A stretch of DNA of 64,000 nt from Actinomycetota bacterium (lineage in GTDB: Bacteria; Actinomycetota; CADDZG01; JAHWKV01; JAOPZY01). The stretch lies in contig DASTWV010000026.1 of NCBI GenBank assembly GCA_035765775.1, positions 1-64,000 of the forward strand. Direction: 5' to 3'. Shown one piece after another: positions 25,176 to 40,783 of this stretch. Position 1 is the first letter of the stretch; every line of letters begins with the position of its first letter. A program made the translations under genes and the position numbers. The notes under the pieces were generated by a model. The model saw only the letters and a program-made list of their open reading frames with translations, was not told the DNA's origin and ran no database searches.

Positions 25176-26529
25176 CCTGAAGGACCGCCCCCCGGGCGCC
25201 CCGGTGCTCACGCCGGAGGACCTGCGCCGCTCCTCGGACCGCCAGCAGGTCTACGCCGCCCGTCGGGCAGGGCGGCGGGTGGCCCTGCTCTGGTTGCTGG
25301 TGGGACCGGGTGTGCTGGTCATGCTGGGCGAGAACGACGGCCCCAGCATGCTGTCCTACGCGGCCAGCGGCGCGACCTACGGCATCGGGTTCTTCTTGCC
25401 CTTCATCCTCGTGACCTTCGCCGCCGCGGTCGTCATCCAGGAGATGTCGATGCGGGTGGGGGCCGTGACCCACCGGGGCTACGGCAAGTTGATCTTCGAA
25501 CGGTTCGGCCCCTTCTGGGGCTGGGTATCGGTGGGCGACGTGGCGGTCACCAACCTGATCACCCTGATCACCGAGCTCATCGCGGTGCGGGTGGGCATGG
25601 GGTACTTCGGGGTCCCGCCGGCGGTCGCGGTGGGGGCGGGGCTGGGGCTCGTGGCGCTCAGCGTCGCCGGCGGTCGCTACCGGCGCTGGGAGCGCATCGC
25701 CCTCGGGCTGGCCGCCTTCAATCTCCTCTTCGTGGTGGTCGCCGTGCTGGCGCACCCCCACCCGGCGGCGATCGGCCGGGCGCTCGCCACCTGGGGCCCG
25801 TTCCCGCACGGATCGCTCCGGGTCTTCCTCCTCCTGCTGGCATCGAATATCGGGGCGACCCTCACGCCCTGGATGCTCTTCTTCCAGCAGAGCGCCGTGG
25901 CCGACAAGGGCATGACCCCCCACGACATCCCGCAGGGCCGCATCGACACCCTGATTGGCGGGAGCCTGGCGGCCATCGCCGGCTGCGGCGCGCTCATCGC
26001 TGCCTCGGTCCTGTTCGCCCACCACGTCGACACCAGCCACCTCCAGGGCGGAGCGGGCTTCGCCACCGCCCTGCGGCCCCTCATCGGGCCGGCGGGCGCC
26101 GGGCTGTTCGCCCTCGGGCTTATCGAAGCCGGCGCACTGGCCACGATGACTATCTCCGCCAGCACCGCCTATGCGCTGGGTGAGGCCATGGCCGGCCCGC
26201 ACAGCTTCAACCGGCGGCTGTCGGAGGCGAAGGGGTTCTACGGGCTCAACTTCGGCGTCGCGGTATTGGCGGCGGCCATCGTGCTGATCCCGGGTGCCCC
26301 CCTGCTCTCCATTACCCTGAACGCCAACCTGCTGGCGGTCGTGCTCCTCCCCGCCGCCCTCGTCTTCCTCCTGCTGCTGGCCAACGACAAGGAACTGATG
26401 GGACCGCGGTCCAACCCCCGCTGGCTGAACCTGTCCGGGGGGGCGATCGCCGCCTTCGTGGGCCTGGCGGGCAGCGCCTACGCCATCGTGGCGTTTGTCG
26501 ATGCGGTCGCCGGCCACGCCGGGCCGTGA
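25168..26529 (+). CDS. Divergent Nramp-family (SLC11-like) metal transporter
   Basis: 453 aa, about 11 hydrophobic helices in Nramp order. The metal-binding helix 1 motif, DPGN in MntH, reads GENDGPSMLSYAASGATYG. Helix 6, normally MPHN, reads GATLTPWMLFFQQS, so the soft Met ligand is replaced by Thr. Such substitutions are known in Nramp-related magnesium or aluminium transporters, so a substrate other than Mn/Fe is likely. GTG start with GGAGG 5-6 nt upstream inside the regulator gene. The stop overlaps the following small membrane gene. Confidence 0.85.
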   Translation: MADLKDRPPGAPVLTPEDLRRSSDRQQVYAARRAGRRVALLWLLVGPGVLVMLGENDGPSMLSYAASGATYGIGFFLPFILVTFAAAVVIQEMSMRVGAVTHRGYGKLIFERFGPFWGWVSVGDVAVTNLITLITELIAVRVGMGYFGVPPAVAVGAGLGLVALSVAGGRYRRWERIALGLAAFNLLFVVVAVLAHPHPAAIGRALATWGPFPHGSLRVFLLLLASNIGATLTPWMLFFQQSAVADKGMTPHDIPQGRIDTLIGGSLAAIAGCGALIAASVLFAHHVDTSHLQGGAGFATALRPLIGPAGAGLFALGLIEAGALATMTISASTAYALGEAMAGPHSFNRRLSEAKGFYGLNFGVAVLAAAIVLIPGAPLLSITLNANLLAVVLLPAALVFLLLLANDKELMGPRSNPRWLNLSGGAIAAFVGLAGSAYAIVAFVDAVAGHAGP

Positions 26530-26768
26530 CCGCCATGCGCCACCTGGAGCCCGAGCACCAGCATCACATCTACGTCGGCGAGCCCGACGAGGACCTCATC
26601 GAGGCTCTCGAGCCCGACCAGCTCGTTGAGGCGGTGGACATCCCCGTGCCCCGGCGCACACTCGGGCGCGGCGCAGCCGCCGGGCTGTGGGGCCTGCGGA
26701 TCCTGCTGCTCGCCGTCGCCGGGATGGTGGTGTACGTCTTCGTGGTGGGAGCCCTGCGCGGCACCTGA
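26526..26768 (+). CDS. Small single-pass membrane protein coupled to the Nramp gene
   Basis: 80 aa (or 77 from ATG 26535). An acidic N-terminal half (EPEHQHHIYVGEPDEDLIEA) with two His is followed by one hydrophobic helix (LWGLRILLLAVAGMVVYVFV). GTGA overlap with the transporter stop shows coupling. It may be an accessory subunit or a regulator of transport; this is inference from the arrangement. No family recognised. Confidence 0.7.
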   Translation: MTAMRHLEPEHQHHIYVGEPDEDLIEALEPDQLVEAVDIPVPRRTLGRGAAAGLWGLRILLLAVAGMVVYVFVVGALRGT

Positions 26769-26787: not shown

Positions 26788-28920
26788 CTACGAGGCGGAC
26801 TTCGGCGTCGATCGCTTGGCTGCCCGCGGCTTGGCTGCCGTCTGGGCCTTGGGCTTCGTGGAGGCGGCCTTGGGCTTCGCGGAGGCGGCCTTGGGCTTAG
26901 CGGCCACTGGCTTCGCTGCGGGCTTGGCCGCCGACTGGGCGCGCGGGGCAGGCTGGGCCGCAGGCTTCCGGCTCCGGGTCGATTTGGCAGCCGGCTTGGC
27001 CGCCGAAGATGTGGCCACCGGCTTCGCTGCCGGCTTCGTGGCGCGCCCGGGCGGGCTCGAGCTCTTCGTCGCTGCCTTGGGCTTCGTTGCAGCCCGAGGC
27101 TTGGAGGCCGACGTCGCTCCCCGCTTGGGTTTGGCGGCCGCCGATGCAGCAGGCTTGGACGCCGCCTTGGGCTTCGCTGCCACCTTGGGCTTCGCTGCCA
27201 CCTTGGGCTTCGCTGTTGCTGCAGTTTTCGACGTGGCCCTTCGGGTGGGCTTGGGCCCTGAGGTGACCTTCGGACTCGCCGCGGGCGCGGGGGCTGCAGC
27301 GGCCTTCGACCTGGGAGCGGACTTTTGCTGGCGCGCGGCAGAAGTCGCCGCCCCCGTCCGGGCGGCGGCCTTGGGCGCTCGCGGAGCCGCGGTTGGTGTT
27401 GCCTTAGACGTTGGCTTTGCCTTCGCTCTCGCTTTCGCCGTTCGCTTGGGCTGCTCCGGAGCGGGCTCGGGCTTTATGAGGTCCGGGGTAGGGCGGGGCG
27501 CCGCGGCGGCCGCCCGCTTGGCGGACCGCCCGGGGGCGCGGGCGGGCTTGTCGGCTGAGGCCGACGCGGGTTCGGCGGCCGGGTGGGCGGACGACCCGGC
27601 ACGACTCCCGAGGACGCCGGGCATCCGCCGGCGCGGTCCTGGTGGCGGAGCCTCGGCCGGTTCGGGGACCACGGTCTCGATCTCGACCACGAGCTGGCCG
27701 TCCACCAGCTCGACGGTCTCGACGAGGATCTCGCCGTCCTCCATCTCCACCGCCTCGACCCCGAGGACCTCTACCTCGGGCTCGGCCACCACCTCGTCCA
27801 CTTCCACCACCAATTCGCCGTCCACCAATTCGACGGTCTCAACAACGATCTCGCCGCCCTCGAGTTCCACCGCCTCCACCGCCAGGATTTCGACCTCCGG
27901 CTCGGTCACCGCCGAGGGTGGATCGGTGGCACCCAGGACACTCGGCATGCGGCGCCGGGGGCCGCGGCCGGGGGGCTCCGGCGGCTCGTCGTCGTCGTCT
28001 TCCGCCACCGTCACCGACACCTCGTCGATTTCCACCACCAACTGGCCGTCCACCAGTTCGACGGTCTCGACCACCACGTCGCCGTCATCAAGCTCCACGG
28101 CTTCCACGCTCAGCACCTCGATCTGGGGCTCGGCCGGGTCGGAGGCACCGGTTCCGCCGGCATCGCCTCCGCCGAGCACGCTGGGCATGCGCCGCCGGGG
28201 CGCTCGCCGGGGAGGCTCGGGCTCCGTTGGCTCTTCGGCGGCCTCCAGCACCACGGCGCCGGTCACGACCCCGACCGGGGTGATGTCCGCCAGCGAGACG
28301 CCGGCGTATAGGTCCACCGGTTCCGGGCCAGGTGCCGCGGCAGCCTCAGGCCGCGGGTCAGACGCGGGTAGGGACGCGGGTTCGGGGCCGCCGAATCCCA
28401 GGACGCTGGCCATCCGGCGCCGGCGCCCGGAGGCCTCAGACTGCGGCGCGGCTGCCGGTGCGCTGGCAGCAGGGGTCTCCGGCTCGGGTGCGGGTTCCTT
28501 GGATCCGAGCGAGCTGGCGCCGCGCCGGCGGCGAGCGGGGGCGGGTGGTGCCGGCTCGGGTTCGCTGGCAGCCGCGGCCCCAGCCTTGGCCCCGCCCAGG
28601 ACGCTGGGCATGGTGTGGCGGCTGGCGGAGACTGGTTCGGGAGCAGGCCGGGAGGGAGTCGGCGGGGCTGCCTTCTCCTGCGGGCTCATGCCACCGAGGA
28701 TGGCGCGCTGGATGATGACACTGATCACAGGCTGGGCTATGCGGAGGGCCGACGAAGCCACCTTGCGCACCTGCTCGTTCTGCGCCGCCTTGGCCACAAG
28801 GGCCTGCACCTCGGGCGACTGTGCCGCCTTGGCGACCACTCTTTGGGCGGCCTGCAGCCCCTCGCCCGACGCTCCAGCTTTGCCGGTGATCCGGTTCACC
28901 ACATCGGCGAACGACGCCAT
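26788..28920 (-). CDS. 710-aa multivalent repeat protein: helical N-domain, SVLG motifs, acidic repeats, H1-like tail
   Basis: Unrecognised protein with clear modular design. Residues 1-78: Ala-rich helices ending in a hydrophobic stretch (IAQPVISVIIQRAILGG). Residues 100-440: Pro/Glu-rich linker with six copies of a basic motif (HTMPSVLGG 102, RGASSLGS 133, RMASVLGF 169, RMPSVLGG 244, RMPSVLGA 324, RMPGVLGS 432). Between them lie three strand-like acidic repeats near 267-298, 343-374 and 383-414 (e.g. ETVELVDGQLVVEI). Residues about 450-710: Lys/Ala/Pro-rich, histone H1-like tail that should bind nucleic acid or polyanion. Strong GGAGG start. Upstream is a 33-aa peptide gene. The N-domain resembles the 93-aa protein at 40502-40783. 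Probably a scaffold; partner unknown. Confidence 0.85.
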   Translation of the reverse strand: MASFADVVNRITGKAGASGEGLQAAQRVVAKAAQSPEVQALVAKAAQNEQVRKVASSALRIAQPVISVIIQRAILGGMSPQEKAAPPTPSRPAPEPVSASRHTMPSVLGGAKAGAAAASEPEPAPPAPARRRRGASSLGSKEPAPEPETPAASAPAAAPQSEASGRRRRMASVLGFGGPEPASLPASDPRPEAAAAPGPEPVDLYAGVSLADITPVGVVTGAVVLEAAEEPTEPEPPRRAPRRRMPSVLGGGDAGGTGASDPAEPQIEVLSVEAVELDDGDVVVETVELVDGQLVVEIDEVSVTVAEDDDDEPPEPPGRGPRRRMPSVLGATDPPSAVTEPEVEILAVEAVELEGGEIVVETVELVDGELVVEVDEVVAEPEVEVLGVEAVEMEDGEILVETVELVDGQLVVEIETVVPEPAEAPPPGPRRRMPGVLGSRAGSSAHPAAEPASASADKPARAPGRSAKRAAAAAPRPTPDLIKPEPAPEQPKRTAKARAKAKPTSKATPTAAPRAPKAAARTGAATSAARQQKSAPRSKAAAAPAPAASPKVTSGPKPTRRATSKTAATAKPKVAAKPKVAAKPKAASKPAASAAAKPKRGATSASKPRAATKPKAATKSSSPPGRATKPAAKPVATSSAAKPAAKSTRSRKPAAQPAPRAQSAAKPAAKPVAAKPKAASAKPKAASTKPKAQTAAKPRAAKRSTPKSAS

Positions 28921-29040: not shown

Positions 29041-29142
29041 CTACATGTCCCGCAACTGCTTGTAGCGCTGGAAGTCGGGAACCGACTGCATCACCAGCAT
29101 CGCGACCAGCAGCAACAGAGCTCCTCCAACGACACCTTTCAT
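29041..29142 (-). CDS. 33-aa membrane peptide (copy 1; DUF6893-like)
   Basis: One hydrophobic helix (GALLLLVAMLVMQ) followed by SVPDFQRYKQLRDM. It shares 13 of 33 residues and exact length with the peptide at 40321-40422, including the S-x-PD-x-x-RY-x-x-L-x-x-M ending. I associate this type with actinobacterial DUF6893 small proteins. GGAGG six nt before ATG. It lies 120 bp upstream of the 710-aa repeat protein on the same strand, the same order as in the second copy of the module. Confidence 0.7.
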   Translation of the reverse strand: MKGVVGGALLLLVAMLVMQSVPDFQRYKQLRDM

Positions 29143-29450: not shown

Positions 29451-29732
29451 ATGGCGACCCGTAGCGGCGACGTTCCTTCCGGGCGTGTATCCCTGCCCGT
29501 CATCGGCCCGCCCCCTCCCCGCCCGGTGGTGCCCGAGTGCTACGGCGACGTCTGCATCACCTGCTCGGACGAGGCGCTCCCCGTCACCATCGTCGAGCTG
29601 CTGGCCGACGAGCTCGCCCGGGTGGACACCGGCCAGAGCGTCGAGGTGGTCAGCGTGGCCCTGGTGGACGCCGGCGTGGGCGACGTGATCCTGGTCCACG
29701 CCAAAGAAGCAATCGCCGTCATCAGGGAGTAA
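29451..29732 (+). CDS. HypC/HupF-like hydrogenase chaperone with displaced cysteine
   Basis: 93 aa. The core CITCSDEALPVTIVELL, then VDTGQSVEVVSVALVDAGVG and DVILVHAKEAIAVI, is the HypC OB-like fold with the extended CxTCSD form known from actinobacteria. Canonical HypC uses the Cys directly after Met1; here that Cys is about residue 36 behind a Pro-rich extension (VIGPPPPRPVVPECYGDVC). ATG 29451 has GGGAGG 7 nt before it. It probably assists hydrogenase cofactor assembly beside the canonical hypC at 40936. Convergent with the response regulator gene. Confidence 0.75.
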   Translation: MATRSGDVPSGRVSLPVIGPPPPRPVVPECYGDVCITCSDEALPVTIVELLADELARVDTGQSVEVVSVALVDAGVGDVILVHAKEAIAVIRE

Positions 29733-29811: not shown

Positions 29812-30465
29812 TCAGGGGTTGAGCGGGCCCAACTCCCGGCGCAGGGCGGCTCGCACCATCTCTGCCTGCGAGTGCAGGCCGAGCTTCTTCATCAGGTTCG
29901 AGCGGTGGCTCTCCACCGTGCGGACGCTGATGAACAGACGCTCGGCGATCTGGGCGCTGGTGTAGCCCTGCCCCACCAACGTCAGCACCTCGCGTTCCCG
30001 CACCGTGAGGGCGGCATCGTCACTGGGCGCCTGGCCCTTGGCCCGGTGGGCATAGGCATCCACCGCGTGCTGGGAGAGCGGTGGGCTGAGGTAGCGCCTC
30101 CCCTGGCACACCTCGCGGATGCCGCGGATCAGCTCGCCGGCCTCCGACTGCTTCAGGACGTAGGCGCCGGCCCCGTTCTGCAAGGCGTCGAGGACATAGG
30201 CCTCATTGGCATACATGGACAGTACGACCACCCGGGTGTCGGCCCCCCGCCGGGTGAGCTCGCGGAGGGCGCTCAGGCCCCCGATCCCGGGCATCACGAG
30301 GTCCAGCACCAAGACGTCGGGCCGGAGCCTCTCCACCATCGGGCACACCTCGGAGCTGTTGCCGGTCTGGCCCACCACCTGGAAGTCGCCCTCGGCCTCG
30401 AGCATGGCGCGCAGGCCCTCCCGGACAACCGGGTGATCCTCGGCCAGGAGCACCGAGAGGCTCAT
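29812..30465 (-). CDS. NarL/FixJ-family response regulator
   Basis: 217 aa. The receiver domain has LLAEDHPVVREGL, phospho-acceptor Asp in VLVLDLVMPGIGG (about 55) and the signalling Lys in AYVLKQSEAG. The C-terminal LuxR-type helix-turn-helix is LTVREREVLTLVGQGYTSAQ, then RTVESHRSNLMKKLGLHSQ. The ATG overlaps the kinase stop (ATGA), so the pair is coupled. It lies divergent to the hydrogenase structural genes and is the best candidate for their regulator. Confidence 0.93.
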   Translation of the reverse strand: MSLSVLLAEDHPVVREGLRAMLEAEGDFQVVGQTGNSSEVCPMVERLRPDVLVLDLVMPGIGGLSALRELTRRGADTRVVVLSMYANEAYVLDALQNGAGAYVLKQSEAGELIRGIREVCQGRRYLSPPLSQHAVDAYAHRAKGQAPSDDAALTVREREVLTLVGQGYTSAQIAERLFISVRTVESHRSNLMKKLGLHSQAEMVRAALRRELGPLNP

Positions 30466-32231
30466 CGGATGGCCCCCACGGTCTCCAGGGCCTCCATCGC
30501 CGCCCGCGCCCCCGAGGCCGACGCAGCCGGGTCGGGCGCGGCCAGCAGGCCACCCTGGACAGGCAGGCTGGCGACGACCCGCGTGCCCCGCCCGGGAGAC
30601 GACTCGATTCGGAACTGGCCGCCCAGCAGCCGGGCCCGCTCCTGCATCCCACGCAGACCGCTGGTGGTGTGCGGGCGGACCGCGCCCGGCTCGAAGCCGA
30701 TGCCGGAGTCCCGGACCTCGATGTACATCTCCTCGTCCTCGAACAGGCAGCGGACGTGCGCCGTCCCGCTGGCGGCGTGGCGCACCACGTTGTTCAACGC
30801 CTCCTGCACGATGCGGTAGGCCGCAGTCTCCACCTCCCAGGAGAAGCGCCGGTCCAGGCCATGGTGGTCCAGCGCCACGTGCAGGCCGGTCTGGGTGGAG
30901 AGCACGTGCTCGGTGAGCCACAGGAGTGCGGGGAGCAGCCCGAGGTCGTCCAGCATGGCGGGGCGTAGCGACAGCGAGAAGTCGTGGACCCGGGACACCA
31001 GTTCCCCCATCCCGGCCCGCGCTTCCCCGAGGGCGGCCCGGAGATCGGCCGGTGCGCGGTGCTCCAGGCTGGCGAGGCTCAGGGCCAGACCGGTCAAGGC
31101 CTGGCCGATCTCGTCGTGCAGCTCCCGGGCAATGCGCCGGCGTTCGGCCTCCTGGGCGGCGACCACCACCCGGGAATGGGCGTCGAGCTCCTCGCGCAGC
31201 TCCCGCTCCCGGTCGCCGGCCCGGCGCAGGGCGTCCTGCACCTTCTTGGCGACGATGGCCTCGGCCAGGACGTTGGCGATGGCCTGCAGGAAATGGACGT
31301 CGTCCCGGCTGAAGCGCCGGTGCCGGGCGGTGTGGGTGCACAGCACCCCCCACGGCCGGCCCTTGCCGCGGACGATGACGCTCATCCCACTGGCTACCGA
31401 CCGCTTGACCCACGGGGGCCCGGCGAAGCGGGTCTCGGAGTCGAAGTCCTCCACCACCACCGGCATGTCGGACACCAGGGTGTAGGCGGCCTGGGATGTG
31501 AGCCGGAGGTCGATGCCCGGCGACCCGGACTGCTCCTCCCAGCCGACGCCGGCCCGCACGGTGAAGCTCTTGCCGTCCCCCGCGAGCTCCAGGACGCGGG
31601 CGAACTCGACCTCCAGCACCCGGGTGATCACGTTGACCGCGGCATCCATGAGGTCGGGCAGCTCGGCGCCCGCCAGGGCCTGCTGGCCGAGGTCGGCCAC
31701 CGCGGCCTGCTGGAGGGTCCGGGTCTTCAGCTGGCGCTCCGCCCGCTCCTGCTCGGAGCGGTCGGAGAAGATCCCGATGCTCGCCAGCCGGCCAGCGACC
31801 TCGATGGTGCCGGCCGCCGCCTCGACGTAGACCCGCTGGCCGCCCTTATGGACCAGCGTCCACTCGAACTCGTGCATGAGCTGGAACTCGAACGGCGGCA
31901 CCTCGATGCCAGCGCCTTTGTGATCACCGTTCAGGGTGAGATCGCCGCCCCGCGCAACCGGTGGGGGCACTGCGGCGGCCATGCCGGCCAGATGCGCCGG
32001 GCGCCGCACGCCCAGCTCCTCCGGGGTGTAGCCAATCATCTGGCTGAACAGCGGGCTGACGTAGATCGGGATCTCGTCGTCCCAGACGACGACGGCGACG
32101 CCCAGGTCGCTTAGGACTTTGGGGAGGTTCCCGAGCCAGGAAGGGGTGGCGTCGCCAATCACAGCGGGAAGCTCCGGTGATTGATCCCGCGCGGGCAGGC
32201 GGGCTTCCCGATCGATCACCGCCCGTGCCAT
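30462..32231 (-). CDS. PAS-GAF sensor histidine kinase (HisKA_3 type)
   Basis: About 589 aa from ATG 32231; an upstream in-frame Met at 32417 gives an Arg-rich, unlikely extension. Order: PAS domain (VAVVVWDDEIPIYVSPLFSQ, IGYTPEELG), GAF domain (LMDAAVNVITRVLEVEFARV to AIANVLAEAIVAKKVQ), dimerisation box with phospho-His RRIARELHDEIGQALTGLAL, and ATPase domain (EALNNVVRHA, DSGIGF, TTSGLRGMQERARLLGG). No transmembrane helix, so it senses a cytoplasmic signal, perhaps redox, oxygen or hydrogen-related. A heme ligand in the GAF is not evident. Coupled to the response regulator. Confidence 0.9.
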   Translation of the reverse strand: MARAVIDREARLPARDQSPELPAVIGDATPSWLGNLPKVLSDLGVAVVVWDDEIPIYVSPLFSQMIGYTPEELGVRRPAHLAGMAAAVPPPVARGGDLTLNGDHKGAGIEVPPFEFQLMHEFEWTLVHKGGQRVYVEAAAGTIEVAGRLASIGIFSDRSEQERAERQLKTRTLQQAAVADLGQQALAGAELPDLMDAAVNVITRVLEVEFARVLELAGDGKSFTVRAGVGWEEQSGSPGIDLRLTSQAAYTLVSDMPVVVEDFDSETRFAGPPWVKRSVASGMSVIVRGKGRPWGVLCTHTARHRRFSRDDVHFLQAIANVLAEAIVAKKVQDALRRAGDRERELREELDAHSRVVVAAQEAERRRIARELHDEIGQALTGLALSLASLEHRAPADLRAALGEARAGMGELVSRVHDFSLSLRPAMLDDLGLLPALLWLTEHVLSTQTGLHVALDHHGLDRRFSWEVETAAYRIVQEALNNVVRHAASGTAHVRCLFEDEEMYIEVRDSGIGFEPGAVRPHTTSGLRGMQERARLLGGQFRIESSPGRGTRVVASLPVQGGLLAAPDPAASASGARAAMEALETVGAIR

Positions 32232-32714
32232 CGCTTCGTTCGCCCTTCCGCCCGCGCCAGGCCTTCCCGTCGCTCCGGGCGCTGCCCTCTTCGTACTCCT
32301 CGCGTGGCTCCCCGTCAAGCGATGCTTGGCTGAGTTGGCGAGATGCACCGAGACGCATGACCAGCGACGGTTTCCTCTCCTTTGCGAGCGGGAATGGACC
32401 AACCGACCTGAACGCACTGTAAACGGTCGTGTTCCCTGCGTAGAGATACGGAGACAGATTCAGTAAAGACACGGATAGATCCGGCCACGGGTGGGTTAGA
32501 GAATCATCGCGTCGCCCTTTCGCGGGGTGCTTTGCCGTATAGCTCCGAACGGCAACCGCGGCCGGGTGCGGGGTGCATCGCTTGCGAGCCGACGGGGAGG
32601 GGGACAGAGTCAGGAAGGCGGGGTTTGTCGAGGAGTTGATCCTCAGATCGCTTCAAGCTCGATCGGGGGCCTGATCCCCACCAGGGGGGTGGCTCCCAGA
32701 AGGAGGTGAAGTGG
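32232..32714. other. Divergent control region between sensor kinase and hydrogenase operon
   Basis: No gene supported over 483 bp; presumably promoters for both directions. Visible items are a small inverted repeat CCACC/GGTGG (32678-32692) in the leader and a perfect anti-16S sequence AAGGAGGTGA (32700-32709) that fixes the hydrogenase small-subunit start. Confidence 0.5.
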
Positions 32715-33794
32715 ATGGCAGCAGCGGCAAGGCGTGGCAGGGCAGCCCCACCGGCTGAGGCAGAAGCGCCCGTCGTACACATCCTCTGGATGAACGGGGG
32801 GCTCTCCTGCGACGGTGACTCGGTGGCGCTCACCGCAGCGACACAGCCGAGCATCGAGGAGATCGTTCTAGGTGCACTCCCCGGGCTTCCCCAGCTGGCA
32901 GTGCACTGGCCGCTGATCGATTTCGAGTGTGGACCCCAGGAAGGGGCCGACACATTCATCGAGTGGTTCTACAAGGCGGAGCGTGGCGAGATCGACCCCT
33001 TCGTGCTCGTGGTGGAGGGCTCCATCCCCAACGAGGCCATCAAGTCCGAGGGCTACTGGTGCGGGTTCGGCAACAACTTCGAGACCGGCCAGCCCATGAC
33101 CACCAGCGAATGGCTGGACCGCCTGGCTCCCAAGGCCCTCGCCATCGTGGCGGTCGGCACCTGCGCCACCTACGGCGGCATGCACGCCATGGCCGGCAAC
33201 CCCACGGGCGCCATGGGCGTCCCCGACTACCTGGGCTGGGGCTGGCGCTCCAAGGCGGGCCTTCCCGTCGTCTGCATCCCGGGTTGCCCGGCGCACGGCG
33301 ACAACATGTCCGAAACATTCCTGTACCTGCTGTACATGGCCACCGGCCAGGCCCCCATCATCCCGCTGGACGAAGCCCTTCGTCCCCGCTGGCTGTTCGG
33401 CGCCACCGTGCACGAGGGCTGCGACCGTGCCGGCTACTACGAGCAGGGTGACTTCGCCACCGAGTACGGCTCACCGAAGTGCCTGGTGAAACTGGGCTGC
33501 TGGGGCCCGGTGGTCAAGTGCAACGTCCCGAAGCGGGGCTGGATCAACGGCGTGGGCGGCTGCCCGAACGTCGGCGGCATCTGCATCGGGTGCACCATGC
33601 CGGGCTTCCCCGACAAGTTCATGCCGTTCATGGACGAGCCCCCGGGCGCCAAGGTGTCCACCGCGGCCAGTGGGGCCTACGGCGCAGTCATCCGTGGGCT
33701 GCGCAGCTTCACCATGAAGACCACCGACACCGAGCCGTCGTGGCGCAAGCCGGGTCCCGACCTGCTCACCGGCGCAACCAAGACCTGGTCGTAG
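32715..33794 (+). CDS. hhyS: NiFe hydrogenase small subunit, actinobacterial (group 1h-like) type
   Basis: 359 aa; electron-transfer subunit carrying three Fe-S clusters. The proximal-cluster region reads WMNGGLSCDGDSVALTAA: Asp35 stands where most hydrogenases have the second Cys, as known for oxygen-tolerant actinobacterial-type enzymes with 3Cys/1Asp ligation. Further ligands: GTCATYGG (Cys150), PGCPAHGD (Cys191), VHEGCDRAG, KCLVKLGCWGP, GGCPNVGGICIGCTMPGFPD. No Tat signal peptide, so it is cytoplasmic. ATG 32715 is chosen for the AAGGAGGTGA site 8 nt upstream. First gene of a long operon. Likely role: oxidation of atmospheric or trace H2. Confidence 0.92.
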   Translation: MAAAARRGRAAPPAEAEAPVVHILWMNGGLSCDGDSVALTAATQPSIEEIVLGALPGLPQLAVHWPLIDFECGPQEGADTFIEWFYKAERGEIDPFVLVVEGSIPNEAIKSEGYWCGFGNNFETGQPMTTSEWLDRLAPKALAIVAVGTCATYGGMHAMAGNPTGAMGVPDYLGWGWRSKAGLPVVCIPGCPAHGDNMSETFLYLLYMATGQAPIIPLDEALRPRWLFGATVHEGCDRAGYYEQGDFATEYGSPKCLVKLGCWGPVVKCNVPKRGWINGVGGCPNVGGICIGCTMPGFPDKFMPFMDEPPGAKVSTAASGAYGAVIRGLRSFTMKTTDTEPSWRKPGPDLLTGATKTWS

Positions 33795-33837
33795 GGCCAC
33801 CTACACGCACCGACAGCTACGAAGGGAGGCTCCAAGC

Positions 33838-35607
33838 ATGGCAAAAGGCGATGTCGTCGAGATGGTGTGGGACCCAGTAACCCGGATCGTGGGGAGCCTG
33901 GGCATCTACACCAAGATCGACTTCTCCCAAGGCAAGGTGCTGGAGTGCTACAGCACTTCATCCATCTTCCGTGGCTACAGCATCTTCATGAAGGGCAAGG
34001 ACCCTCGGGACGCCCACTTCATCACCAGCCGCATCTGCGGCATCTGTGGTGACAACCACTGCGCGGTGTCCTGCTACAACCAGCAGATGGCCTACGGGAT
34101 CCACCCCCCGGCCATGGGCGAGTGGATCGTCAACCTGGGCGAGGCCGCGGAGTACATGTTCGACCACAACATCTTCCAGGAGAACCTGGTGGGTGTGGAC
34201 TACTGCGAGAAGATGGTCGCCGAGACCAACCCCGGCGTCCTGGAGTTGGCCAACAAGACCGAGTCCCCCCACGCCGCCGAGCACGGCTACCGCACCATCG
34301 GCGACATCATGCGGTCCCTGAACCCGCTCTCGGGCGAGTTCTACCGGGAGGCCCTGCACGTCAGCCGGTACACCCGGGAGATGTTCTGCCTCATGGAAGG
34401 GCGCCACGTCCACCCCTCCACCCTGTACCCCGGAGGCGTCGGCACCGTCCCGACCATCCAGCTGTTCATGGACTACCTCACCCGCCTCATGCGCTACCTC
34501 GAGTTCATGAAGAAGGTCGTGCCAATCCACGACGACCTCTTCGACTTCTTCTACGAGGCGATCCCGGGCTACGAGGAAGTCGGCCGGCGGCGCGTGCTGC
34601 TGGGCTGCTGGGGCTCCCTCCAGGACCCGAACGTCTGTGACTTCAAGTACGAGAACATGTCCACCTGGGGCGACGCGTGCTTCGTCACCCCCGGCGTCGT
34701 GGTCGACGGCAAGCTCGTCACCCACGACCTCGTGAAGATCAACCTGGGCCTGCGCATCCTCCTCGGCTCCTCGTACTACGAGGATTGGGAAGGCAAGGAG
34801 GTCTTCGTCAAGAACGACCCCCTGGGCAACCCGGTGGACGTCCGTCACCCGTGGAACCAGCACACCATCCCGAGGCCGCAGAAGCGCGACTTCACCGACA
34901 AGTACAGCTGGACCATGTCGCCCCGCTGGTTCGACGGCAAGGACTACCTCGCCCTCGACACCGGTGGTGGCCCCCTGGCCCGCCTGTGGCCGACCGCCCT
35001 CGCCGGGCTGGTCAACACGCCCTACGTCAAGTCGACCGGGCACAGCATCACCATCGACTTCCCGAAGACCGCGACCAAGGGCCCGGCCCACTTCGAGTGG
35101 GTCATCCCCGAGTGGTCCAACGCCCTCGAGCGCAACCGGGCTCGGACCTACTTCCAGGCCTACTCTGCCGGCCTGGCGCTGTACTTCGTTGAGGAAGCCC
35201 TGAAGGAGCTCCGGGCTGGTCACACCCAGACCTGGACCCCGTTCAAGGTGCCGGACGAGGCCATCTCCTGCGGGTTCACCGAGGCGGTCCGGGGCGTGCT
35301 CTCCCACCACATGGTCATCCGGGGCGGGAAGATCGCCAACTACCACCCGTACCCCCCGACCCCGTGGAACGGCAGCGTCCGTGACATCTACGGGACCCCG
35401 GGACCCTACGAGGACGCGGTGCAGAACACCCCGATCTTCGAGGAGAACGAGCCCGAGAACTTCAAGGGCATCGACATCATGCGGGCCGTCCGTTCCTTCG
35501 ACCCCTGCCTGCCGTGCGGGGTGCACATGTACCTCGGCGGGGGCGCGGGCAAAGGCAAGGTCGTCCGCCGGATGCACTCGCCTACCGTCCTGCCCCTGGA
35601 GCGCTAG
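33838..35607 (+). CDS. hhyL: NiFe hydrogenase large subunit, actinobacterial (group 1h-like) type
   Basis: 589 aa; binds the Ni-Fe(CN)2CO centre. L1 motif SRICGICGDNHC (Cys67, Cys70) and L2 motif FDPCLPCGVHMY (Cys557, Cys560, His563) supply the four Ni-bridging thiols. A 26-residue tail follows His563 and should be removed by the endopeptidase encoded at 39723-40274. The N-terminus WDPVTRIVGSLGIYTKIDF is typical of this subgroup. 43 bp after the small subunit with its own ribosome site. Two hairpins lie behind it. Confidence 0.95.
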   Translation: MAKGDVVEMVWDPVTRIVGSLGIYTKIDFSQGKVLECYSTSSIFRGYSIFMKGKDPRDAHFITSRICGICGDNHCAVSCYNQQMAYGIHPPAMGEWIVNLGEAAEYMFDHNIFQENLVGVDYCEKMVAETNPGVLELANKTESPHAAEHGYRTIGDIMRSLNPLSGEFYREALHVSRYTREMFCLMEGRHVHPSTLYPGGVGTVPTIQLFMDYLTRLMRYLEFMKKVVPIHDDLFDFFYEAIPGYEEVGRRRVLLGCWGSLQDPNVCDFKYENMSTWGDACFVTPGVVVDGKLVTHDLVKINLGLRILLGSSYYEDWEGKEVFVKNDPLGNPVDVRHPWNQHTIPRPQKRDFTDKYSWTMSPRWFDGKDYLALDTGGGPLARLWPTALAGLVNTPYVKSTGHSITIDFPKTATKGPAHFEWVIPEWSNALERNRARTYFQAYSAGLALYFVEEALKELRAGHTQTWTPFKVPDEAISCGFTEAVRGVLSHHMVIRGGKIANYHPYPPTPWNGSVRDIYGTPGPYEDAVQNTPIFEENEPENFKGIDIMRAVRSFDPCLPCGVHMYLGGGAGKGKVVRRMHSPTVLPLER

Positions 35608-35659
35608 GAGCGTCAGGTCAAACGACGAGAGCGGTAAGCTCGACGCACTTCCGAAGCAG

Positions 35660-35699
35660 CCGGGGGGGCCAACTGGCTCCCCCGGCCCGGCTTCGGGCC
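35660..35699 (+). terminator. Two tandem hairpins after the hydrogenase large-subunit gene
   Basis: First: CCGGGGG (35660-35666) with CCCCCGG (35679-35685), enclosing CC/GG. Second: GGCCCG (35684-35689) with CGGGCC (35694-35699), a 4-nt loop. The arms compete at 35684-35685. No T-run; likely partial termination or mRNA stabilisation, setting hhySL above the accessory genes. Confidence 0.45.
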
Positions 35700-35762
35700 A
35701 CGCGTCGGGTGTACGGGTGAGAGCTACAGGCAGGGAACCCAGCGAACACAAGAGGGAGTGCG

Positions 35763-36698
35763 ATGGCCTCGGGTCAAGGTAACGGTCACAGCAACGTTCG
35801 CCAGGTTGGGGACCGCATCGAAGTGCTGCTGGGCGAGCTCCGCTCGTCGGCGTCGCCCGAGGTCTCTACCAAGGTCGAGGAGGTCGTCGGCCTCCTTGTC
35901 GAGCTCTACGGGGCCGGGCTGGAGCGGATCCTCGAGGTCGTAAACGAGGACCAGGATGTGGCCACCCCGCTGCTGAAGCGCTTCACCGACGACAAGTTCA
36001 TCGAGAGCCTCCTGGTGCTGCACGGCATCCACCCGGTGGACGTCGACACCCGGATCGAAACGGCCCTCGACCAGGCCCGGCCCTACCTCGGGTCGCACGC
36101 CGGCGGCGTCCAGTACCTGGGCGTCGACGAGCAGGGGGTCGCCCACCTGAAGCTCGAAGGAAGCTGCCACGGCTGCCCGTCTTCGACGGTCACGGTGAAG
36201 CTGACGCTCGAGCAAGCCATCGCCGAGGCCGCTCCGGAAGTGCTCCGGGTGGAGGTCGAGGGCGTGGCCGAGGCCCCTACCGGGCCGAGCCAAAATTTGC
36301 TGCAGATCCAGACCCGCCCGGGCGGCCCCGTCGATGCCACCGCCGCCGACGCGGCCAGCGCCTGGCTTCCCATCGACGCCGTCGGGCTGCTGCCCGGCGA
36401 GAAACGGGTGCAGGTGGTGGAGGGCATGGAGGTCTTCATCTGCTCGGCGGTGGGCAACCTCTACGCCTACCGCAACGCGTGCGCCTCGTGCGGCGCGTCG
36501 CTGAAGGACGCCGCCCTGCTGGATGAAGCCTTGCGCTGCTCACGCTGCGGCACGCTCTACAACGTGCGCCTCGCCGGGCGCAGCGTGCACTCCTCAGACA
36601 GCTCGGTGGTCCACCTCGACCCGCTGCCGCTCCTGCAGGACCAGCACGAGTGGAAGGTCGCCATCCCGCCGGGCGCCCGCTCGGTGGTCCGCTCCTGA
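35763..36698 (+). CDS. NifU C-terminal domain fused to Rieske-like/Cys4 domain
   Basis: 311 aa. Residues about 95-170 are a NifU/NfuA-type Fe-S scaffold with CxxC in EGSCHGCPSSTVTVKL (Cys135, Cys138). Residues about 200-305 follow the Rieske fold layout (VEGMEVFICSAVGNLYAYRN). But the usual C-x-H and C-x2-H ligand pairs are CASC (240, 243) and CSRC (259, 262), giving four Cys. It may therefore hold a rubredoxin-type iron, a zinc or an all-Cys 2Fe-2S cluster. Within hydrogenase operons of this type such a protein is expected to deliver or accept electrons or Fe-S clusters. Confidence 0.85.
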   Translation: MASGQGNGHSNVRQVGDRIEVLLGELRSSASPEVSTKVEEVVGLLVELYGAGLERILEVVNEDQDVATPLLKRFTDDKFIESLLVLHGIHPVDVDTRIETALDQARPYLGSHAGGVQYLGVDEQGVAHLKLEGSCHGCPSSTVTVKLTLEQAIAEAAPEVLRVEVEGVAEAPTGPSQNLLQIQTRPGGPVDATAADAASAWLPIDAVGLLPGEKRVQVVEGMEVFICSAVGNLYAYRNACASCGASLKDAALLDEALRCSRCGTLYNVRLAGRSVHSSDSSVVHLDPLPLLQDQHEWKVAIPPGARSVVRS

Positions 36699-36715
36699 GG
36701 GCCCCGGCGGAGAAC

Positions 36716-37501
36716 ATGGGCCAGAGCAACGGCAACGCCGGTCCGGCACCGGCTGCCCCCAGCGGGCTGCGCCGGTTCGTCAAGGGCCTCCCTCCGGCGG
36801 GCGCCTCCGAGGAGCTGCTGTCCCGGTTCGAGGAGTCCCGCCGCCCGCGCCCCAAGCCGGGAGAGGCATGCGAGATGTGCGCCGCCCCGATCCCCGAGGA
36901 GCACGGCCACGTCGTCCACATCGAGAACCGGGAGTTGATGTGCGTCTGCCGCCCGTGCTACCTGCTCTTCGCCAAGGACGGCTCGGGCCAGGGCAAGTAC
37001 CGCCAGGTCCCCGACCGGTACCTGTTCGATCCGTACTTCGTACTCGACGACGCCCAGTGGGAGGACATCCAGATCCCGGTGTCGATGGCCTTCTTCTTCA
37101 ACAACTCCACGCTCGACCGCTTCGTGGCCTTCTACCCCAGCCCCGCCGGGGCGACCGAGTCGCTGCTCGACCTGGAAGCCTGGGGCAAGGTCATGGAGGC
37201 CAACTCCTCCTTCGAAGGGATCCTGCCCGACGTGGAGGCGCTGCTGCTGCGCAAGGAGGACGACACCTTCGCCGGCTACCTCGTCCCGATCGACAAGGCC
37301 TACGAGCTGACCGCCATCGTGCGCATGCACTGGAAGGGCTTCAGCGGCGGCGAGGAGGTCTGGGACGCCATGAACCGATTCTTCGAGGATCTGCGCGGCC
37401 GGAGCGCGGTCGTCGGCTGGGGGCCACGCGGGCCACGGCCGGCCGCGGCGGCGGATCCGGCACCGCAGGACGCGGCCCCCGACCACTCTGAGGGCGGGTG
37501 A
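36716..37501 (+). CDS. DUF5947-like hydrogenase-cluster protein
   Basis: 261 aa. CEMC (52, 55) and CVCRPC (76, 78, 81) form a probable zinc or Fe-S site beside HGHVVHIENREL. A beta-rich body follows (YFVLDDAQWEDIQIPVSMAF, VEALLLRKED). I associate this pattern with DUF5947 proteins found beside actinobacterial hydrogenases; function unknown. The tail after residue 235 is Ala/Pro-rich. ATG 36716 is 17 nt after the previous stop; the next gene starts 1 nt after its stop. Confidence 0.75.
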   Translation: MGQSNGNAGPAPAAPSGLRRFVKGLPPAGASEELLSRFEESRRPRPKPGEACEMCAAPIPEEHGHVVHIENRELMCVCRPCYLLFAKDGSGQGKYRQVPDRYLFDPYFVLDDAQWEDIQIPVSMAFFFNNSTLDRFVAFYPSPAGATESLLDLEAWGKVMEANSSFEGILPDVEALLLRKEDDTFAGYLVPIDKAYELTAIVRMHWKGFSGGEEVWDAMNRFFEDLRGRSAVVGWGPRGPRPAAAADPAPQDAAPDHSEGG

Positions 37502-37502
37502 G

Positions 37503-38189
37503 ATGAGTGAACTCGTCTTCGACCTCCTGGGTGTGGAACCAGAGCCATACGCCGCGTCCCCGACGCTCAACTTCGGCCTGCGCATCTCGGAGACCACCGG
37601 CATACGGATCCATGCCATCCTCCTGCGCATCCAGATCCGCATCGAGCCGAAGCGGCGCCGCTACTCGCCCGCCGAGGCGGAGCGGCTGCTCGACCTCTTC
37701 GGCGAGACCAAACGCTGGGGCGACACGGTGAAGCCGATGCAGTTCGCCTTCGCCGACGCTGCCATCCCCGGTTTTGACGGGTCGATCGAAGTGGACGTCG
37801 CGGTCCCCTGCACCTACGACTTCGAGGTGGCCAGCGCCAAGTACTTCCACGCCCTCGACGAGGGCGAGATCCCCCTGCTGATGCTGTTCTCCGGGACGGT
37901 GTTCACCAAGGGTGAAGGTGGGTTCGCCGTCGAGCAGGTGCCCTGGCACAAAGAGATCAGCTTCGGGGTGCCGGTGGCCACCTGGGACAAGCTGATGGAC
38001 CTCTACTTCCCCGGACAGGCCTGGGTGCGCATGCAACGCGAGACCCTGGACGGCCTGCAGCGCTTCAAATCCCACCGGGGCCTCACCGGCTGGGACGAGA
38101 CCCTGACGGTCCTGCTGGAGGCGGCTGGGGACAGCGGGGCGGGAGCGCCAGGGAAAGCGGAGCCGGAGAGGCCGGTCGTCCATGAGTGA
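37503..38189 (+). CDS. DUF6084-like hydrogenase-cluster protein
   Basis: 228 aa, beta-rich and soluble. Characteristic segments: PTLNFGLRISETTGIRIHAI, RRRYSPAEAERLLDLFGE, VPCTYDFEVASAKYFHAL and WDKLMDLYFPGQAWVRMQRE. I recall this type as DUF6084, known only from hydrogenase neighbourhoods. It overlaps the next gene by 8 nt, and the four genes from 36716 to 40274 are tightly coupled, so they probably act as a complex or in sequence during enzyme assembly. Confidence 0.72.
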   Translation: MSELVFDLLGVEPEPYAASPTLNFGLRISETTGIRIHAILLRIQIRIEPKRRRYSPAEAERLLDLFGETKRWGDTVKPMQFAFADAAIPGFDGSIEVDVAVPCTYDFEVASAKYFHALDEGEIPLLMLFSGTVFTKGEGGFAVEQVPWHKEISFGVPVATWDKLMDLYFPGQAWVRMQRETLDGLQRFKSHRGLTGWDETLTVLLEAAGDSGAGAPGKAEPERPVVHE

Positions 38190-39726
38190 CGACGGGGAAG
38201 GCCCCGACATCTTCGCCCTGGCGAAGAAGATGGCCGACGCCATCCTCTATGAGGGCTACGTGCTGTATCCCTACCGGGCCTCGGCAGCCAAGAACCAGGT
38301 CCGCTGGCAGTTCGGCGTCCTGGCACCGAATGCCTGGAGCCAGTCCGGCGGGCCCGAGCCGTGGGAGCAGCAGGTCCAGCTCCTGGCCGAGCCGGAGGAC
38401 GGTGCCGTCCTGCAGCTGCGCCTCCGGTTCCTCCAGGTGCAGGCCAAGCGGGTTGAGGAGCGCCGGGGGGACGGCAGCTTCTCGCCGGTGGAGACCCTGA
38501 CGGTGGGCGGGACCCAGCACATCACCTGGGAAGAGGCCGTCGAGCACCAGCTGGACTACCGCTTCCCCATCGCCGACCTGGCCGCCGACGAGGCCACCAT
38601 CGCACTGAAGATCGCCGGGGGCGAGGACGCACCCGAGTCGGTCAGCGATGCCGAGGGTGGCGTGGCTGGGCGCATCCTGCGCCGTCGCCAGCAGCTCCAA
38701 GGCCTGCTGCGGGTGTCGGCCGAACCGCTGCCCGGGCCCTTCGGCGCCTACCGGCTGAGGCTGCGGATCGAGAACCTCACCCCCTACGACGGTTCGCCCG
38801 ACGACCGGAGGGCGGCGATGAGCTACTCGTTCATTGCCTGCCACACCCTGTGGGCGCTCACCCCCGCCCGCCACGGCCGCTTCATCTCCCTGCTGGAGCC
38901 CCCGGCGTGGGCGAAGGCGGAGGCCCAGGCGTGCGAGAACCTGCACGCCTTCCCGGTGCTGATCGGCGACCGGCAGGCCCGCGACGTCATGTTCGCCTCG
39001 CCCATCATCCTGTACGACTGGCCCCAGATCGCCCCGGAGAGCCCGGGCGACCTGTTCGACGGCACCGAGGTGGACGAGTTGCTGAGCCTCAACATCATGA
39101 CGATGACCGACGAGGAGAAGAAGGAGGCCCGGGCCACCGACCCCCGCGCCAAGGCGATCATCGACCGGGTGGACGCCATGCCGCAGGAGCTGCTCGACCG
39201 CCTGCACGGCGCGGTGCGCTACCTGCGCGACGTGACCGGCGAGCTGGACGACATCCCCGAGTTCGGCACCGGTGCCGACGGGCTCCCGGTGTACGGCGAG
39301 GAGCGCCCCATGTCTGGGCGCTCCGCCCCCGGCTCCGCGGTCTTCGGACGCGAGTTCGACGACCGGCGGCCCGCCGGCTACCAGAACGCCACGGCGCCGG
39401 CCCCCGATCCGGCCCAGCCCTGGTGGGAGCAGGAGGCCAACTTCAAGCCCGACACCGACACCGCCGTCATCAACGGCGTACCGGTGGCGGCCGGGGGCAA
39501 GGTGATCCTGCGCCCGGGGACCCGGCGCGCCGACGCCCAGGACATGTTCCTCGCCGGCAAGGTGGCCGACGTCCAGGCGGTGTTCTACGACCTGGAGAAC
39601 AAGCAGTTCCTGGCGGTGACCCTGGAAGAGGACCCCAACGCCGACCTGCAGGTGGAGAATGGGCGCTTCCTGTACTTCGCCGCCGACGAAGTCGAGCCGG
39701 TCGTGTCCGGGGAAGTCCCGGCATGA
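38182..39726 (+). CDS. 514-aa hydrogenase-associated protein of unknown function
   Basis: Large soluble protein, start overlapping the previous gene and stop overlapping the protease start (ATGA). The first 290 residues are well structured (AILYEGYVLYPYRASAAKNQ, RWQFGVLAPNAWS, YSFIACHTLWAL, DVMFASPIILYDWPQIAPES). Residues about 300-350 are helical (NIMTMTDEEKKEARATD). The C-terminus (GGKVILRPGTRRADAQDMFL, KVADVQAVFYDLE) is a small beta-fold that could bind metal or the maturing subunit. The same gene order occurs in other actinobacterial hydrogenase loci from memory; no biochemical role is known to me. Confidence 0.72.
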   Translation: MSDDGEGPDIFALAKKMADAILYEGYVLYPYRASAAKNQVRWQFGVLAPNAWSQSGGPEPWEQQVQLLAEPEDGAVLQLRLRFLQVQAKRVEERRGDGSFSPVETLTVGGTQHITWEEAVEHQLDYRFPIADLAADEATIALKIAGGEDAPESVSDAEGGVAGRILRRRQQLQGLLRVSAEPLPGPFGAYRLRLRIENLTPYDGSPDDRRAAMSYSFIACHTLWALTPARHGRFISLLEPPAWAKAEAQACENLHAFPVLIGDRQARDVMFASPIILYDWPQIAPESPGDLFDGTEVDELLSLNIMTMTDEEKKEARATDPRAKAIIDRVDAMPQELLDRLHGAVRYLRDVTGELDDIPEFGTGADGLPVYGEERPMSGRSAPGSAVFGREFDDRRPAGYQNATAPAPDPAQPWWEQEANFKPDTDTAVINGVPVAAGGKVILRPGTRRADAQDMFLAGKVADVQAVFYDLENKQFLAVTLEEDPNADLQVENGRFLYFAADEVEPVVSGEVPA

Positions 39727-40274
39727 CCGACGCCCCGCGGATCCTGGTCGCCGGCGTCGGCAACATTTTCCTCTCCGACGACGCCTTCGGCTGCGAGGTC
39801 ATCCGCCGGCTGGGCGAGCACCCGCTCCCCGAGGGGGTCACCGTGGCCGACTTCGGCATCAAGGGGGTGCACCTTGCCTACGAGCTGCTGGAGGGCTACG
39901 ACGCCGTGGTCATCGTCGACGCCGCCCCGTGCGGCGGCCAGCCGGGCGACCTCTACCTGATCGAGCCGCAGCTCGACGAGGTCGAGGAATCGCCGCTCGT
40001 ACAGGCGGCCGCCGAGGGCGAGTCCGCCCTGGTGGATGCCCACGGGCTGGAGCCCGACGCCATCTTCGGCATGCTGAAGGCCCTCGGCGGGAGCGTGCGC
40101 CGGGCACTGGTCGTCGGCTGCGAGCCGGAGACCGTCGAGGACGGCATGGGGCTCACCCCGGTGGTGGAGGCGGCGGTGGAGCCCACCGTTGCCCGGCTGA
40201 TTGACATCGTGGGGCGCCTGCACGTCGAGCAGGACGTGGCGCTCACCACGCTCGCCCGGAAGAACCCTTCCTGA
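39723..40274 (+). CDS. Hydrogenase maturation endopeptidase (HyaD/HybD-type, M52)
   Basis: 183 aa. VAGVGNIFLSDDAFGCEVIRRL carries the family Glu/Asp ligands, ADFGIKGVHLAYELLEGYDAVVIVDA the central Asp, and VDAHGLEP the His that together bind the nickel in the precursor. It removes the C-terminal tail of the large subunit after NiFe insertion, here predicted after His563 of HhyL. ATG overlaps the preceding stop. Confidence 0.92.
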   Translation: MTDAPRILVAGVGNIFLSDDAFGCEVIRRLGEHPLPEGVTVADFGIKGVHLAYELLEGYDAVVIVDAAPCGGQPGDLYLIEPQLDEVEESPLVQAAAEGESALVDAHGLEPDAIFGMLKALGGSVRRALVVGCEPETVEDGMGLTPVVEAAVEPTVARLIDIVGRLHVEQDVALTTLARKNPS

Positions 40275-40320: not shown

Positions 40321-40422
40321 ATGTTCAAGCTTGTGAAGGCCGCTGTGCTCGCCGGGGCTGCCGCCCTGCTCGTCACGTCGCTCCCGGACATCAAGCGCTA
40401 CCTGGAACTCAAGAACATGTAA
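40321..40422 (+). CDS. 33-aa membrane peptide (copy 2; DUF6893-like)
   Basis: Hydrophobic helix (AAVLAGAAALLVT) then SLPDIKRYLELKNM, preceded by GAGAGGAGG. Same length and ending as the peptide at 29041-29142. It sits inside the hydrogenase operon, 46 bp after the endopeptidase and 79 bp before the 93-aa protein. Possibly a membrane anchor or adaptor (inference). Confidence 0.72.
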   Translation: MFKLVKAAVLAGAAALLVTSLPDIKRYLELKNM

Positions 40423-40501: not shown

Positions 40502-40783
40502 ATGGAAGCGCTCGTCGGCTTCGCAATCGGCTACTGGACCGGAACCCGCGACGGGCGGGAGGGCCTGCAGAAGGCCCTGAACGCCCTGGACGCCATCACC
40601 AAGTCCGAGCAGTTCAAGTCGCTGGTGAATTCAGGCCTCTCGGTCGGCGGCAACCTCCTGGCGAAGGGCATGCAGAACGCCAACGCCGGCGGCGTGGCCT
40701 CCACCGTCAGCCGGGGCGTCGTCGGCGTCGTCGCCCAGCGGGCGGGCAAGGCCCTGGTCGGCGGGCTGCGCCGGGCAGCGTAG
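40502..40783 (+). CDS. 93-aa YtxH-like helical protein, partner of the 33-aa peptide
   Basis: The N-terminus MEALVGFAIGYWTGTRDGRE resembles the short hydrophobic GYxxGxRxGRE start of actinobacterial YtxH-like proteins. Then come amphipathic helices (GLQKALNALDAITKSEQFKS) and a Gly/Ala/Val-rich end. The segment GLQ-x-A...S-E-x...LV aligns with residues 21-43 of the 710-aa repeat protein, which likewise follows a 33-aa peptide gene. It may associate with membranes; placed between protease and hypC it probably serves the hydrogenase. Confidence 0.68.
   Translation: MEALVGFAIGYWTGTRDGREGLQKALNALDAITKSEQFKSLVNSGLSVGGNLLAKGMQNANAGGVASTVSRGVVGVVAQRAGKALVGGLRRAA

Follow-up and report, generated by a model that had tools for sequence, protein, structure and literature searches.

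A disordered multi-motif protein paired with a DUF6893 microprotein, candidate organisers of a group 1h-type hydrogenase in one small actinobacterial family

Group 1h hydrogenases oxidise atmospheric H2, and the genes described here bear on how they attach to the membrane and transfer electrons. No anchor of the cytochrome b type was detected in the Hhy operon in published work (PMC6883350). The high-affinity group 2a hydrogenase Huc is gathered at the membrane by a non-catalytic scaffold, HucM (PMC10017518). Several other described proteins share features of design with the protein analysed below. CsoS2 is likewise a long disordered protein in which a repeated short motif provides multivalent binding (PMC11365436), and in AlgP, PhaF and PhaM another domain is likewise followed by a basic tail of Lys, Ala and Pro (PMC9239181, PMC13052382). 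AlgP consists of a helical N-domain of 124 aa followed by a 195-aa disordered KPAA tail (PMC9239181). Finally, the actinobacterial protein MLDS/TadA is reported to link a lipid body and DNA (PMC5504291).

We analysed a stretch of 64,000 nucleotides from an Actinomycetota bacterium (contig DASTWV010000026.1 of assembly GCA_035765775.1, positions 1 to 64,000), hereafter the window. It contains a single-copy gene for a 710-aa protein (Table 1). The plus strand of the same region holds a 792-aa ORF, which is long because the DNA is 71% GC and which we rejected as antisense read-through. The acidic repeats within the 710-aa protein differ mostly by synonymous changes (dN/dS 0.17-0.28), and this pattern, together with the orthologue described below, identifies the minus strand as coding. 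The protein belongs to no family in Pfam, NCBIfam, PHROGs or the PDB sequences, its best Pfam match being noise (Ribophorin II, E 0.68). Neither the N-domain nor a composite query retrieved a convincing relative from the order (8 genomes), the class (24) or the phylum sample (396). The weak matches in the phylum sample (E 1e-4) were rejected because they lacked the motif and looked compositional, and a contig scan yielded two proteobacterial tails drawn by the low-complexity tail and no relatives.

Synteny revealed what the sequence search had missed: a 498-aa positional orthologue (L073:2379-3875, on G007:C92) in the sole other genome of the same family in the sample, G007, which belongs to another genus. 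The two loci have the same motif, the same order of parts and the same neighbours, namely a divergent HypC2 (85%), a response regulator (82%) and a convergent Nramp transporter, followed by an MntR-type regulator and a P450. In G007 a DUF6893 gene is followed 125 nt on by the gene for the 498-aa protein. This protein carries four motifs (RKGMPSVLG, RRGMPSVLG, RKRMPSVLT and RRRMSSVLP), an acidic strand-like block and a 153-aa Lys/Ala/Pro tail. The orthologue settles that the minus-strand frame is a real gene. The two proteins, from two genomes, are the only known members of what is a new protein family. The HhyL gene was not found in G007, though the rest of the hydrogenase operon was. A gene at 26526-26768, which encodes an 80-aa protein with a single hydrophobic segment, overlaps the Nramp gene at the latter's end and is convergent to the 710-aa gene; its product has no family match and no counterpart was seen in G007.

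Table 1. Position of the features in the window, with the basis of each assignment or a remark
Feature	Position	Strand	Basis or remark
710-aa multivalent disordered protein, whole ATG frame	26788..28920	minus	orthologue L073:2379-3875
N-terminal segment, aa 1-80, predicted helical (pLDDT about 50)	28681..28920	minus	orthologue sequence not conserved
Motif 1, SRHTMPSVLG, aa 100-109 (site aa 104)	28594..28623	minus	pairs with orthologue aa 110
Motif 2, RRRRGASSLG, aa 130-139 (site aa 134), degenerate	28504..28533	minus	no counterpart in orthologue
Motif 3, RRRRMASVLG, aa 166-175 (site aa 170)	28396..28425	minus	motif comparison
Motif 4, PRRRMPSVLG, aa 241-250 (site aa 245)	28171..28200	minus	motif comparison
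Motif 5, PRRRMPSVLG, aa 321-330 (site aa 325)	27931..27960	minus	motif comparison
Motif 6, PRRRMPGVLG, aa 429-438 (site aa 433)	27607..27636	minus	no counterpart in orthologue
Acidic unit 1, aa 266-301, predicted beta-meander	28018..28125	minus	repeat comparison, AlphaFold2
Acidic unit 2, aa 342-377, predicted beta-meander	27790..27897	minus	repeat comparison, AlphaFold2
Acidic unit 3, aa 382-417, predicted beta-meander	27670..27777	minus	repeat comparison, AlphaFold2
Lys/Ala/Pro tail, aa 471-710 (240 aa), histone H1-like composition	26791..27510	minus	residue counts
DUF6893 microprotein, 33 aa, one hydrophobic (probably transmembrane) stretch and PDFQRYKQLRDM	29041..29142	minus	PF21833, 30.6 bits
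HypC paralogue (HypC2), divergent neighbour	29526..29732	plus	PF01455; orthologous locus 85%
Group 1h-type hydrogenase core operon: small subunit, large subunit, NifU-type protein, DUF5947, DUF6084, 514-aa protein, HupD	32706..40274	plus	operon content
Second DUF6893 microprotein, in hydrogenase operon between HupD and 93-aa gene	40321..40422	plus	PF21833, 48.8 bits
93-aa protein of hydrogenase operon	40502..40783	plus	relation to N-domain not supported

The original prediction had described six SVLG-type motifs, three acidic repeats and a histone H1-like tail, and all of these parts are present. Five of the six motifs, which lie in Pro/Ala linkers, are good copies and one is degenerate: at site 134 the M is absent and S replaces V. 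At site 104 there is no Arg run. The motifs had also been called regularly spaced, which is not the case, the intervals being 30, 36, 75, 80 and 108 aa. A strict form of the motif fits five sites of the protein, whereas 2000 shuffles that preserved composition gave 0.0005 on average. As a DNA pattern, this strict form has three matches in its own genome, all within the 710-aa gene, and a single match outside that genome, antisense to a glucosidase-like gene and attributable to chance. For the strict motif, we rejected the idea of a targeting tag on other proteins on the grounds of this confinement to one gene of its own genome. With a relaxed pattern, matches across the 24 genomes of the class form clusters solely at the 710-aa locus and the orthologous locus (three and four matches) and are isolated elsewhere; one lone match lies on contig 49.

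The four motif pairs that align with the orthologue give a dN of 0.04 and a dS of 1.05 for the codons of the MPSVL core. The eight-residue flanks give a dN of 0.88-1.09, values that imperfect alignment may inflate. The constant part of the motif is this core, with Arg varying to Lys or Gly and the final Gly to Thr or Pro. Codon substitutions thus place the motif core under strong constraint between the two proteins, amid linkers and an N-domain that evolve fast.

AlphaFold2 predicts that the motifs and linkers are disordered (mostly pLDDT <50) and that each acidic unit of 36 aa forms a three-stranded antiparallel beta-meander. Identity to unit 2 is 76% for unit 1 and 72% for unit 3, and units 2 and 3 in tandem reach a mean pLDDT of 84; a fold search with the units returned no PDB match at E <= 0.001. 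The tail is strongly basic (41 K, 17 R, 78 A, 39 P and 3 D/E), contains five KPAA and five KPKA words, and brings the net charge after the last motif to +59. Motifs, repeats and tail had been expected to persist together in orthologues. Four motifs and the tail do, whereas the acidic part is kept only in kind, as three strand-like acidic stretches without DG-turn repeats. On our reading of the sequences, neither the 710-aa protein nor the hydrogenase small subunit has an evident signal peptide, so both are plausibly cytoplasmic.

A resemblance to CsoS2 had been proposed without sequence relation, and it holds as an analogy only: the 710-aa protein has no Pfam match, no Cys and one Tyr, and in contrast to CsoS2 it contains two isolated (V/I)(T/S)G triplets and no triplet arrays. 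No shell or Rubisco genes were seen at the locus. We ruled out identity with CsoS2 or a phasin from the lack of a matching domain and of triplet arrays or Cys pairs. The motif array, the acidic beta units and the missing phasin domain match also set it apart from AlgP, PhaF and PhaM as described. MLDS/TadA and HBHA-type actinobacterial proteins have a Lys-rich tail, but their architecture differs and we found no Pfam relation. HucM, at 188 aa, forms a helical coiled coil, whereas the 710-aa protein is predicted to be mostly disordered and is linked to a group 1h enzyme. HucM binds hydrogenase lobes through a tetramerising helical stalk; in the 710-aa protein, the N-terminal 76 aa are predicted helical at a pLDDT of about 50 and have no PDB sequence match. 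By analogy, HucM may serve as a precedent for the proposed scaffold function only.

We assigned the hydrogenase in the window to group 1h from operon content, large-subunit similarity and general knowledge rather than with a hydrogenase classifier, so the assignment is best read as probable. The 710-aa gene had been tied to this operon by an N-domain supposedly shared with the 93-aa protein. The comparison gives z=5.4 against the copy in the window and z=1.3-1.5 against two orthologues; a search of the protein's own genome failed to recover the 93-aa gene at E<=0.1; and the hydrophobic GYxxGTR part is absent from the N-domain. Because z drops in this way and the N-domain of the 498-aa orthologue resembles neither sequence, the likeness is best treated as chance. 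The 93-aa protein has relatives in G007 and G008, a membrane-like GYxxGTRxGREGL start and no Pfam family. What the 710-aa locus and the hydrogenase operon do have in common is a gene order, DUF6893 and then a partner, the partner in the operon being the 93-aa gene. DUF6893, together with the HypC paralogue, offers a better founded tie to the hydrogenase than the N-domain.

The microprotein upstream of the 710-aa gene (MKGVVGGALLLLVAMLVMQSVPDFQRYKQLRDM) is encoded 120 nt away on the same strand, with a Shine-Dalgarno-like GGAGG. It exceeds the PF21833 cut-off of 24.6 bits, as do its G007 orthologue (34.3 bits) and the operon paralogue (scores in Table 1). It is identical to the L073 copy at 26 of 33 residues (dN 0.13, dS 1.08), and the arrangement of DUF6893 upstream of the multi-motif gene is kept in both genera. 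We picked 33 loci from the phylum sample on the DUF6893 model alone. In 32 of them, DUF6893 lies <=600 nt from HupD, the 514-aa protein, HypA, HypB, HypC or HypC2 of a group 1h-type island, a count that includes the orthologous locus (where the near gene is HypC2) and L102 (whose match is below the Pfam cut-off); in most loci it directly follows HupD. These results make DUF6893 a candidate membrane or maturation component of group 1h hydrogenases.

Pfam lists DUF6893 as a family of unknown function, and its members here are membrane-type microproteins of 32-33 aa (window 40321-40422, loci L074-L103). The top-scoring one of the sample (54.8 bits; L071, G007:C155:2469-2564) is on a short contig without a detected hydrogenase gene, where its neighbours are a Cys-rich protein of 98 aa and a reductase-like gene. 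In the three genomes checked for it, the gap between DUF6893 and HypC is filled by a HypF-like gene and not by a multi-motif protein. No mention of DUF6893 turned up in the open-access papers searched. Other genes surround the pair in the window. HypC2 stands apart from the hyp operon, and HypC2-like frames adjoin HypC or HypD in several other genomes. A GAF-containing histidine kinase and a LuxR-type response regulator (29812-32162) separate the DUF6893/710-aa pair from the hydrogenase operon, and the regulator is kept in the orthologous locus.

The idea of a scaffold remains the best reading, with motifs and tail kept in the orthologue, though it has lost the N-domain as its link to the hydrogenase. 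We tentatively propose, with less than even confidence, that the 710-aa protein is cytoplasmic, mostly disordered and acts as a multivalent scaffold specifically for the island of the group 1h (high-affinity, Hhy-type) hydrogenase in a single small family of actinobacteria. The basic-M-P-S-V-L motifs would all be short linear docking sites for one partner, which is most probably encoded in the hydrogenase island itself, and with four to six copies on flexible linkers the chain would bring several molecules of that partner together. Placement of the assembly at the membrane would fall to the 33-aa DUF6893 protein encoded in the same direction, and the tail may hold the assembly to a polyanion such as anionic membrane, DNA or polyphosphate. 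The acidic beta-meanders may space the chains, self-associate or mask the tail. Several observations count against this proposal: the loose conservation of the acidic units, a family of two members, the missing HhyL gene in G007, and the position of the gene on the strand opposite to the hydrogenase operon, which begins 3.8 kb away. Moreover, most genomes with a group 1h hydrogenase and DUF6893 show no multi-motif protein, which indicates that the enzyme in general does not need it.

The chief alternative, which we consider rather unlikely, is a tether of the AlgP/PhaF (or MLDS) type for a granule or the nucleoid, linked to starvation. Its tail would attach to DNA (or polyphosphate), a storage granule or lipid droplet would be held by the N-terminal helices or by the motifs, and the location beside the hydrogenase would reflect shared starvation regulation. 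The K/A/P-rich, strongly basic tail with its repeated words matches this type, and high-affinity hydrogenases serve starvation persistence (PMC6883350). However, there is no phasin or other Pfam or NCBIfam match, a repeated short-motif array with acidic beta units is absent from the descriptions of AlgP and PhaF, and the DUF6893 partner points toward the hydrogenase. It is a little less likely still that this is a lineage-specific, fast-evolving disordered protein (for example of the envelope or a general nucleoid protein) that neighbours the island by chance and has no dedicated hydrogenase role. Its presence in two genomes and the rapid change of its linkers and N-domain would fit, but the pairing with DUF6893 and HypC2 is kept across two genera.

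We regard a maturation hub as improbable. The motifs would bring together HypC2, HupD or the unprocessed large subunit, and would loosely mimic the cleaved C-terminal extension of the latter. HypC2 is a conserved divergent neighbour, and within the C-terminal end of the HhyL in the window (VVRRMHSPTVLPLER) the segment RRMHSPTVLP ranks 6th of 17,255 ten-residue segments of the window's proteins under the motif profile. Nearly all group 1h-like large subunits examined keep an H(S/T/A/V)P element there. We nonetheless judged the mimicry weak, since this tail scores 5.0 against 22-35 for real motifs, another HhyL site scores higher, and the likeness was noticed after the fact. Equally hard to credit is a multi-site phospho-switch in place of docking, with each motif a Ser/Thr kinase site (R-x-x-S and a hydrophobic residue): most copies have R at -3 and a basic run before Ser, as basophilic kinases favour, but site 433 has Gly instead of Ser, and M, V and L, not usually needed at kinase sites, are conserved like Ser.

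Returning to the scaffold reading, a broader and more doubtful extension is a dedicated organising system for atmospheric-H2 hydrogenases, in which DUF6893 would be a general group 1h membrane microprotein and, in this family, a duplicated DUF6893 and the scaffold would bring the enzyme together in an assembly or condensate bound to the membrane. The 710-aa protein constitutes a clean natural example of selection keeping a short linear motif amid fast-changing disordered sequence. For membrane attachment and electron transfer, DUF6893, which occurs almost only at these operons, and the putative scaffold paired with its second copy provide concrete candidate genes. The 710-aa protein may thus be an unrecognised organiser of the hydrogenase that burns the trace hydrogen of air.
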